64,000 nucleotides of DNA, taken from Candidatus Fonsibacter ubiquis. GTDB taxonomy: Bacteria; Pseudomonadota; Alphaproteobacteria; Pelagibacterales; Pelagibacteraceae. A model generated the notes under the pieces. That model saw nothing but the letters and a program-made list of their open reading frames with translations. It did no database searches and had not been told where the DNA came from. Below, one piece after another: positions 22,941-48,593 of this stretch; the stretch's first letter is position 1, and every line of letters starts with the position of its first letter. The DNA lies in contig NZ_CP024034.1 in the NCBI RefSeq assembly GCF_002688585.1, forward strand, positions 425,501 to 489,500, written 5' to 3'. Position numbers and translations under genes: made by a program.

Positions 22941-22985
22941 ATATCAAAGCAGATATATCCTTATTTATAAAAATTATCAAAATTA

Positions 22986-23010
22986 GGAGAGGTGGCCGAG
23001 ATGGCTGAAG
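22986..23010 (+). pseudogene. 5' fragment of tRNA-Ser
   Basis: These 25 nt match the first 25 nt of the intact tRNA-Ser at 24203-24227 exactly (acceptor strand plus most of the D arm), then diverge at once into AT-rich DNA. No anticodon or T arm follows, so this cannot make a tRNA. It is in the same orientation as the intact gene 1,217 nt away and is the left edge of an inserted or duplicated segment. Confidence 0.9.
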
Positions 23011-23089
23011 TAATTTTCTTTTGATAATTATTTATTTGATTATTTTATTGTATAATAATGTAATTCACTGAAAGTAAAAATAAATATAA

Positions 23090-24052
23090 TTAATTTAAAA
23101 CCCAATTCTCAAAAGAGGTATATTTATTTTTAAGAAACTTGTTAGTATATAATGATTTGAAATTATAATCATTACTAATTAATAGATTAAGTTGCCATAA
23201 CTTATTAAATATAAAGTGAGGTATAATTTTTTTGAAAAAAAAAATTTTTTTTAAAAAAATTTCTATAATTAAAAAATAAAATTTGTTTTCGAGTATATAC
23301 TTACTCTTATTTTTATACTTAATTTTAAAAGTATCTAATAATTCATAAAAAGTTCTAGTATGTGTTGAACAAATAATTGTCGTAATTTTTTTTATTTTTT
23401 TTTTATTTGTTAATAAATAAATTATTTTAGCCAAATCTTTTACATAGATAAGAGATATTTTTCCTGGAAATTTTATCTTTGAAAAAAAATTATTTTTTTT
23501 AACATTTATTTTAAATACTGAAAAAAGACCCTTTTTTATTGTGTTTTTGCCAAATACCGCACTTATTCTTAAAATAACTAATTTTATATTTGATTTATTA
23601 AACTTTTTTTTAAGATAACATTCAGTTTCTAATTTTTTTTGACCATAAATGTGATTTGGTTCTAGAGTAATGTCATTTTCTGTACTATAAGATTTATAAC
23701 TAAATTTTTTTTTACATAAATTATCCATTGTTGCAATAGAACTTGCGTAGATAAATTTTTTAATTTTTTTGAGATTTAAACATTCAATTAAGTTTTTAGT
23801 ACCAATAGTATTTATATCATGATTTTTGAGTGAAGTATCAACATTTGATGCTAAATGAATGACAGTATGAATTTTCTTTTTTTTTAATTTTCTTAATGTT
23901 TTTTCTCTCATTAAGTTTCCAATAACAATATGATACTTTTTTAGATTAATCTTTTTATTTTTTTTTTTAAGTAATAAAATAATTTTTTTTGTCTTAAGAA
24001 TATCTAATAATTCTTTTCCAATGAAACCATCTCCACCTGTAATTAAGATCAT
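23090..24052 (-). CDS. NAD(P)-dependent epimerase/dehydratase (extended SDR)
   Basis: 320 aa. The nucleotide-binding motif GGDGFIG is at residues 6-12 and the catalytic YxxxK is Tyr136/Lys140 in HIYGQKK, with IYASS before it. It is an extended SDR of the nucleotide-sugar epimerase/dehydratase type; substrate unknown. Base composition is extreme: 23221-23280 has 3 G/C in 60, and the protein is crowded with Lys, Ile, Phe and Asn, more so than its neighbours. Position inside the tRNA-Ser repeat suggests it arrived by transfer, perhaps for surface polysaccharide. Confidence 0.8.
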   Translation of the reverse strand: MILITGGDGFIGKELLDILKTKKIILLLKKKNKKINLKKYHIVIGNLMREKTLRKLKKKKIHTVIHLASNVDTSLKNHDINTIGTKNLIECLNLKKIKKFIYASSIATMDNLCKKKFSYKSYSTENDITLEPNHIYGQKKLETECYLKKKFNKSNIKLVILRISAVFGKNTIKKGLFSVFKINVKKNNFFSKIKFPGKISLIYVKDLAKIIYLLTNKKKIKKITTIICSTHTRTFYELLDTFKIKYKNKSKYILENKFYFLIIEIFLKKIFFFKKIIPHFIFNKLWQLNLLISNDYNFKSLYTNKFLKNKYTSFENWVLN

Positions 24053-24137
24053 TATAAACTATTTTTTAAATTATAATAAATTCGATTTTTTAATTTAATA
24101 TAAAATTAAAGAAAATATAGTAAATGTAAATTTAATG

Positions 24138-24166
24138 TTGACATATGATCATTTTCTTTAAATTAT
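24138..24166 (+). promoter_or_regulatory. Possible promoter for tRNA-Ser
   Basis: A perfect TTGACA at 24138-24143, 17 nt, then AATTAT at 24161-24166. Transcription would begin about 30 nt before the tRNA. TATTAT at 24185-24190 is an alternative -10 closer to the gene. It lies inside the inserted segment. Confidence 0.35.
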
Positions 24167-24202
24167 CTTTTATGTACCATTATATATTATTAAATTTAGA
24201 TT

Positions 24203-24297
24203 GGAGAGGTGGCCGAGATGGCTGAAGGCGGCGGTTTGCTAAACCGTTATACGATTGAAAAGTCGTATCGAGGGTTCGAATCCCTCTCTCTCCGCCA
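24203..24297 (+). tRNA. tRNA-Ser (anticodon GCT)
   Basis: 95 nt with encoded CCA. The acceptor stem GGAGAGG pairs with TCTCTCC (one G-U), discriminator G. The anticodon loop TTGCTAA gives GCT, decoding AGC/AGU. A long variable arm (TTATACGATTGAAAAGTCGTAT) is typical of class II tRNAs, and the T arm has GGTTCGAATCC. The membrane-protein gene begins 5 nt after the CCA. Confidence 0.97.
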
Positions 24298-46490: not shown

Positions 46491-48593
46491 ATGCTTAATC
46501 CAAGTTTAGTTTTAAATTTAGTAATTCTTTGCGGAATTTTATCAATTATTTTTGCTTATATTTCCGGCGTTCAAATTTTATCAGCAAGTTCTGGCAATGC
46601 TAGAATGAAAGAAATTGCAGGAGCAATTCAAATAGGAGCAAGAGCATATTTAAATCGTCAATATAAAACCATTTCAATAGTTGGAGTAGTTGTTCTTATT
46701 GCTGTAATTTTTTTATTTAATATTTGGGTTGGACTTGGTTATTTCATTGGTGCCTTTTTATCAGGTATTGCGGGTTATGCTGGAATGTTAATTTCTGTGC
46801 AAGCGAATGTAAGGACTGCTGAAGCATCGAGAAAAAGTTTAGCAGAAGGATTAAAAATTTCTTTTAAATCAGGTGCTTTAACAGGAATGTTAGTTGCTGG
46901 TTTAGCATTACTTGCCATTGCTGTTTATTATTGGGTACTTTTAGAATTAAAAATTGAAGAAAGAGAAATTTCTAATGCTTTAGTTGCGCTAGGATTTGGT
47001 GCTTCTTTAATTTCAATTTTTGCAAGATTAGGTGGAGGAATTTTTACTAAAGGTGCGGATGTTGGAGCTGACTTAGTTGGAAAAGTTGAAGCTGGAATTC
47101 CGGAAGATGATCCAAGAAACCCTGCTGTTATCGCTGATAACGTAGGAGATAACGTAGGAGATTGCGCTGGAATGGCTGCAGATTTATTTGAAACTTATGC
47201 AGTTACAATTGTTGCTACTATGGTTTTAGCTTCCATATTTTTCTCTGGAAATTTAAACATGTTAATTTATCCATTAGCAATCGCTGGCAGTTGTTTGATT
47301 ACATCTATTATTGGAACATACTTTGTAAGATTAGGCGCTAGTAAAAGTATTATGGGCGCTTTGTATAAAGGCTTTATAGTTTCTGCAGTTTTATCTTTAA
47401 TCGTTCTATACCCAGTCACTGAATATGTAGTTGGATTTACTAAAGTATATAAAGTTGGAGCACTTAGCTTTACAGGACTTAAATTATATTATTGCGGAGT
47501 AACAGGTCTTGTAATTACTGGATTATTAATTTGGGTTACAGAATACTACACAAGCACAGCTTATAATCCTGTCAAATCCATCGCTAAATCTTCAACAACT
47601 GGACATGGAACAAATGTTATTCAAGGTTTAGCTATTTCCATGGAAGCAACTGCATTGCCAGCGTTAATTATTGTAGCTGGAATTTTATCAACTTATTTAA
47701 TTGCAGGATTATACGGAATTGCAATTGCAGTTACTACAATGTTGGCATTAACAGGAATGGTTGTTGCTTTAGATGCTTATGGACCAGTGACTGATAATGC
47801 TGGTGGAATAGCGCAAATGAGCAATTTACCTGCAAGTGTCAGAAAAGTTACTGATGCTCTTGATGCAGTTGGAAATACTACAAAGGCTATTACAAAAGGA
47901 TATGCAATTGGTTCTGCAGGTCTTGGAGCTTTAGTTTTATTTGCTGCATACACAGAAGATATTAAACATTTTTCAAAAACTTCAGGTTCAGCATTAAAAG
48001 GAATTGTAGTAAATTTTGATTTATCAAATCCATATGTTGTTATTGGTTTATTAATTGGAGGTTTGCTTCCTTATCTGTTTGCTTCTATGGGAATGCAAGC
48101 AGTTGGTAGAGCAGGCGGAGCTGTAGTTATTGAAGTTAGAAGACAGTTTAAAAAATGGCCTGGTATTATGAAGAACAAACAAAAACCAGACTATAGAAAT
48201 GCTGTAGATATTTTAACTAAAGCTGCAATCAAAGAAATGATCATTCCTTCTTTATTGCCAGTTTTATCTCCAATAGTTCTTTACGTTATAATTTATTACA
48301 TAGCCGGAACATCTTCAGCCTTATCTGCTTTAGGAGCGATGTTGTTAGGTGTTATTGTTACTGGATTTTTCTTAGCAGTATCAATGACAGCTGGTGGCGG
48401 AGCATGGGATAACGCAAAAAAATATATTGAAGATGGTCATTATGGTGGAAAAGGATCAGACGCTCATAAAGCTGCTGTAACAGGAGATACGGTCGGAGAT
48501 CCTTATAAAGACACTGCAGGACCTGCTGTTAACCCAATGATTAAGATTACAAATATTGTAGCTTTGTTATTGCTAGCAATTATTGCTCGTTAG
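46491..48593 (+). CDS. hppA: K+-independent H+-translocating membrane pyrophosphatase
   Basis: 700 aa, about 16 membrane helices. It pumps protons using pyrophosphate. The pyrophosphate site is seen in [19 protein letters not shown]-type sequence and in [19 protein letters not shown] (split motifs DNVGD, MAADLFE), and GGAWDNAKK lies near the C-terminus. Lys465 in [10 protein letters not shown] with Thr468 is the signature of the K+-independent class. The pump would recover energy from biosynthetic PPi, common in energy-limited marine bacteria. It overlaps convergent bamE by 4 bp. Confidence 0.96.

Follow-up and report, generated by a model that had tools for sequence, protein, structure and literature searches.

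The stretch of DNA analysed here (the window) covers 64,000 bp of the genome of Candidatus Fonsibacter ubiquis, a member of the SAR11 bacteria. It contains an intact tRNA-Ser(GCT) gene that is preceded, on the same strand, by an exact copy of its own first 25 nt, and the two enclose a segment filled by one open reading frame (ORF) on the opposite strand (Table 1). An earlier note on this DNA had described an exact 25-nt copy, an intact gene and one very AT-rich epimerase gene between them, and all three were confirmed. The GC content of the insert is well below that of the window as a whole (17.0% versus 28.8%), and within the 64 kb, 963-bp intervals with less than 20% GC were confined to the insert. 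A similar GC content was found in the ORFs sampled at G000:204500-212500, which is probably hypervariable region 2 of the same genome (G000).

Table 1. Features of the tRNA-Ser(GCT) locus in window coordinates; G004 and G011 are relatives of the window genome.
Feature	Position	Strand	Basis
Original upstream region (promoter side) of tRNA-Ser	22941-22985	+	Same sequence directly before the intact tRNA-Ser in the G004 and G011 empty sites
25-nt copy of the tRNA-Ser(GCT) 5' end, left repeat (attL-like)	22986-23010	+	Exact match to 24203-24227
Inserted segment, 1192 bp, 17.0% GC	23011-24202		Absent from G004 and the other relatives examined
NAD-dependent epimerase/dehydratase, extended SDR, 320 aa, sole cargo gene	23090-24052	-	PF01370
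Insert-derived region upstream of tRNA-Ser, TTGACA at 24138	24053-24202	+	Sequence, promoter-like match
Intact tRNA-Ser(GCT), first 25 nt form the right repeat (attR-like)	24203-24297	+	ARAGORN

The tRNA-Ser(GCT) gene is the only one of its kind among the 33 tRNA genes of the genome. Allowing up to two mismatches, the 25-mer was found at two sites in the 1,160,202-bp genome, namely the copies at 22986 and 24203. In 230 kb of DNA around the 33 tRNAs, the repeat was also the only tRNA match longer than 15 nt located outside a gene. A match of 15 nt at window position 48100 was set aside, as this is the length that chance gives. The repeat begins exactly at tRNA nucleotide 1 and ends at nucleotide 25, short of the anticodon loop. 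The locus shows the configuration of an island, consisting of a tRNA gene and an identical fragment of its end. The D-loop allele GAGATGG is present in both copies; at genus level it was seen only in the tRNA-Ser loci of G000, G004 and G006, so that the attachment sequence or tRNA end came from a close relative.

We compared the locus with relatives sampled at one genome per species. In the close relative G004, the sequence upstream of the stub at 22986 runs straight into a whole tRNA-Ser gene. When the flanks of the insert were joined at 22985/24203, they aligned with G004 over 7,111 bp at 97.7% identity with no gap at the junction, and the joined flanks also aligned with G011 (86.5%) and, partly, with G005. 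Divergence from G004 was uniform at about 2.3% and even on both sides of the site, which argues that no long tract was imported with the insert. Across the genus, most tRNA-Ser loci retain the gene order of SMR gene, tRNA-Ser and membrane protein gene, and neither the epimerase nor the tRNA fragment was present at this locus in any of the genus relatives examined. The empty site and the uninterrupted flank alignment show the insertion directly. The earlier note had proposed an insertion, possibly a small cargo island, and had stated that the presence of epimerase and fragment in all relatives would speak against it; the proposal is borne out, in the form of a one-gene islet. From the empty site in relatives and the lack of a close epimerase homologue among the genomes of the order searched (see below), we conclude that the insert is derived and foreign.

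Other variation was observed at the same locus. In other members of the genus (L006-L011, L018), a small ORF resembling a secreted protein occupies a gap of about 350 bp between the SMR gene and tRNA-Ser; this ORF is missing in G000, G004, G011 (contig 20) and G005. Two versions of the locus occur on different contigs of G011 (L016/L018 and L005), one with a broken membrane-protein gene, and this genome is probably a mixed assembly.

The old upstream region of tRNA-Ser now precedes only the 25-nt stub and is stranded 1.2 kb away, so transcription of the sole tRNA-Ser(GCT) has to start within the insert or reach the gene by read-through. Replacement of the upstream region follows from this anatomy. 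As a candidate promoter, the TTGACA at 24138 gives a sigma-70-like match of 10/12, the best among the upstream regions of the 33 tRNA genes; an equally good promoter-like score was reached by 17 of 345 AT-rich control 90-mers (about 5%). The earlier suggestion that the segment supplied a new promoter and 5' half stands for the upstream region and the 5' part, whereas the TTGACA, though present, is not rare in AT-rich DNA. We also considered an inverted repeat that surrounds the 25-nt fragment, with AATTATCAAAATTA in the host and TAATTTTCTTTTGATAATT in the insert, and has a fold z of -3.9 on the minus strand. Matches as good were found in 33 of 1500 shuffles and in 5 of 525 real AT-rich 60-mers; we rejected it as significant and treat it as chance or a weak terminator.

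The product of the insert ORF matched PF01370 at 2.9e-25, with a family score over the cut-off, and the cofactor motif TGGDGFIG and the YGQKK (YxxxK) motif are both intact. The best curated model was that of a heptose 6-epimerase, which scored below its cut-off, and no equivalog model passed. Judging from its family, the cargo probably acts as a nucleotide-sugar epimerase and modifies surface glycans. In 297 genomes of the order, no homologue was detected at 1e-20 outside its own genome, and the best matches elsewhere, among 61 relatives, were about 30-40% identical. A search of 101 relatives with the insert DNA returned only low-complexity AT matches, and the epimerase was not found in phage records or viral contigs. 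With its one ORF the insert contains no integrase, in agreement with the earlier reading. The nearest tyrosine recombinase gene, which is the only PF00589 gene of the genome, lies about 43 kb away (G000:C1:492764-493273) and is common to other species. Most of the complete SAR11 genomes searched have a single PF00589 recombinase of about 320 aa, with a second one in G020 and G041.

Integrases at tRNA genes usually duplicate the 3' part of the gene. We scanned the DNA around all tRNA genes in eight complete genomes of the family and detected 13 tRNA fragments in island arrangement, eight 5' (upstream) and five 3', with a reach of 4-10 kb around the tRNAs in most genomes, such that larger islands were missed. 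All 13 fragments were 100% identical to the nearest tRNA and shared its strand, and each lay on the side where integration would leave it. In addition to the 25-nt tRNA-Ser fragment of G000, the 5' fragments were from tRNA-Met and tRNA-Leu(TAA) in G015 (63 and 39 nt), from the same two tRNAs in G044 (40 and 39 nt), and from tRNA-Met, tRNA-Leu(TAA) and tRNA-Gly in G045 (40, 39 and 39 nt). The earlier note had regarded duplication of the 5' part as unusual, which holds in general and is incomplete for SAR11, where it is recurrent. In the Islander survey, the 5' type made up 159 of 3919 islands, a share that is not like for like with ours since only islands with an integrase and a length of at least 2 kb were counted there (PMC4383910).

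None of the eight 5' islands, which range from 1.0 to 11.2 kb, contains an integrase. Those of G015, G044 and G045 carry one to ten genes. Their products include two cytosine methyltransferases accompanied by an HNH nuclease, a ResIII helicase, a protein resembling a sensor, and unknown proteins. Direct repeats near both ends were matched by 0 of 60 shuffles in five of the eight islands, and by 3 of 60 in a sixth. By eye, these repeats are pairs of 7-9-nt units about 11-12 nt apart, an arrangement that would resemble arm-type integrase sites.

Individual islands showed further features. The tRNA-Met 5' islands of G044 (L164:7986-12198, 4.1 kb) and G045 (L124:3456-14808, 11.2 kb) have two cytosine methyltransferases and an HNH nuclease in common and differ in their remaining content; they are probable defence islands without an integrase. 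The tRNA-Met 5' island of G015 (L193:8658-12389, 3.7 kb) has as its only cargo a ResIII helicase of 1090 aa that is similar to type IIG/I restriction enzymes. At the tRNA-Leu islands of G015 (L190:12511-14259) and G044 (L167:4197-6101), the direct repeat continues upstream for about 60 nt, across the promoter region, with 55/60 and 57/60 positions identical, respectively. Islands of the 3' type without an integrase were also seen (L167:8238-11435 in G044 and L208:6750-10096 in G043, at tRNA-Thr, two in tandem, and tRNA-Met), and a number of the genes in them resemble type IV pilins.

A source of enzymes for insertion at tRNA 5' halves was apparent in viral sequences. Among viral contigs containing a 33-mer of tRNA-Leu(TAA), 21 of 23 hold only the 5' part of the gene, identical as far as nt 39-43. 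Many of these contigs also encode an integrase, adjoining the 5' half where checked, either of a 297-aa phage type that adjoins a T7-like RNA polymerase or of a 545-aa type. In agreement with this, a tRNA fragment lies between integrase and RNA polymerase in the phage isolates HTVC105P (nt 1-43 of tRNA-Leu(TAA)), HTVC121P (nt 1-41 of tRNA-Cys) and HTVC109P (nt 3-41 of tRNA-Leu), and 5' halves in viruses and satellites were found for Leu, Gly and Cys. The 7,799-bp viral contig L209 has overlapping ends and is apparently a circular element of about 7.7 kb. It encodes the 545-aa tyrosine integrase and a primase-helicase, and carries a tRNA-Leu(TAA) 5' half as putative attachment site. The 545-aa integrase had no match in 50,697 phage records, and the L209-type element looks like an undescribed SAR11 phage satellite. 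Five contigs (L224, L225, L227, L228 and L230) were grouped with L209 as similar elements. Relatives of the 545-aa integrase adjoin 39-40-nt 5' fragments of tRNA-Leu(TAA) in the SAR11 genomes G164 (L311) and G127 (L312), and the satellite-like L225 and L227, which encode this integrase, have island-type repeats on both sides of their site. The presence of 5' tRNA halves beside integrases in pelagiphages and in satellite-like elements of about 8 kb indicates that SAR11 viruses possess an enzyme suited to such insertions. In phage records and viral contigs we found no phage with the 5' end of tRNA-Ser(GCT); two looser matches to the 25-mer were rejected as phage sites, both being whole bacterial tRNA-Ser genes.

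The islet shares with the SAR11 5' islands its configuration, the absence of an integrase and a single cargo gene. Its core, however, ends at nt 25, whereas nearly all other 5' fragments and phage sites reach nt 39-43, and its ends show no arm-like direct repeats above chance (47 of 60 shuffles were as good). Given the short core, the missing arms and the lack of a phage with the tRNA-Ser end, we do not file the islet as a proven member of this group. The best reading, to which we lean with some reserve, is that it is a decayed or trans-mobilised insertion at a tRNA 5' half. On this reading, foreign DNA entered the sole tRNA-Ser(GCT) gene in its 5' part; it brought along a copy of tRNA nt 1-25 together with an upstream region of its own, and the tRNA has stayed whole. 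The enzyme may have been a tyrosine integrase like those with which SAR11 phages or satellites target 5' halves, either acting in trans or since lost, in which case the islet would be a decayed or non-autonomous member of the SAR11 5'-half tRNA island family. The end at nt 25 and the missing arms would both be explained by a later deletion in which the arms and the rest of the fragment were lost along with any integrase. An attachment site derived from the tRNA and carried by the insert would be expected to give a repeat that starts at tRNA nt 1.

The main rival is homology-facilitated illegitimate recombination, in which linear DNA from another SAR11 cell, with an epimerase upstream of tRNA-Ser, would have recombined on the right side through the shared tRNA and been joined by chance at nt 25 on the left, integrase never being involved. 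A repeat that stops outside the usual integrase crossover sites is consistent with such an event, as are the lack of arm repeats and of an integrase and the GAGATGG allele in both copies, which would place the origin of the tRNA end in a close relative. We nevertheless consider it rather unlikely: no genome was found with the epimerase upstream of tRNA-Ser, the even divergence of the flanks from G004 gives no sign of an imported tract, and 5'-half integrases are available among SAR11 viruses. A transposition that duplicated 25 bp of the target, the insert itself being free of tRNA sequence, formally fits an insertion flanked by an exact direct repeat. It is improbable, as a transposase is lacking, a target duplication of 25 bp would be a long one, inverted repeats of the insert ends do not exceed chance, and the start of the repeat at tRNA nt 1 would be a coincidence. 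That a partial and a whole tRNA in tandem are the remains of a tandem tRNA-Ser duplication, an idea raised in the earlier note, or an ancestral state lost elsewhere, is scarcely credible, because G004, the closest relative, as well as G011 and G005 as outgroups, each have a single tRNA-Ser without an insert, and a pair of tRNA-Ser genes occurs at this site in none of the relatives.

Building on insertion at the tRNA 5' half as the preferred reading, we tentatively propose a possible family of SAR11 cassettes to which the islet would belong as a worn member. Such cassettes would lack an integrase, sit at tRNA 5' halves, provide the tRNA with their own upstream region and keep only the arms of the attachment site (two short repeats about 11 nt apart per end), and they would be moved in trans by integrases of pelagiphages or of the satellites of about 8 kb.

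SAR11 genomes are streamlined and have few recognised mobile elements. At the tRNA-Ser islet, a one-gene acquisition in SAR11 can be read exactly, empty site included. The sequence comparisons suggest that tRNA 5' halves are a recurrent entry point into SAR11 genomes that is missed by island finders requiring an integrase and 2 kb. If the arm-bearing islands without an integrase were moved by phage or satellite enzymes, then defence genes (methyltransferases and the ResIII-type restriction helicase) and surface genes would spread likewise. The 5'-half pattern is of higher interest than the tRNA-Ser locus itself, which is of modest interest.

Several known systems resemble the islet in part. 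The SAR11 5' islands of G015, G044 and G045, at tRNA-Leu, Met and Gly, likewise have a 5' fragment and no integrase, but most of them bear arm-like repeats at each end, and their fragment extends to nt 39-63; the islet has neither feature. Integration is known for pelagiphages of the HTVC019P/HTVC105P group and for Fonsiphage-EPL, the latter in tRNA-Leu (PMC6811365). These phages share with the islet a SAR11 host and a tRNA target; the islet differs in having no phage gene, a tRNA-Ser(GCT) target and a core of 25 nt rather than 39-43. Tycheposons, as cited in PMC10872708, are marked by a tyrosine recombinase and span 4-200 kb. By that summary they also place cargo at tRNA genes of streamlined planktonic bacteria, and the islet differs in that their hallmark tyrosine recombinase is absent. 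Archaeal pTN3-like integrases have their attB in the 5' half of a tRNA gene, with the tRNA then read from a promoter of the element (PMC8371274); these systems differ from the islet in being archaeal and in having an integrase gene, which is split. Compared with the 5' tRNA islands of Islander (PMC4383910), the islet lacks an integrase, is smaller (1192 bp, below 2 kb) and has a repeat that ends before the anticodon loop, and the first two of these properties mean that the Islander filters would reject it. In its anatomy, however, it agrees with those islands: an upstream fragment, an intact gene downstream on the same strand, foreign cargo and an empty site.
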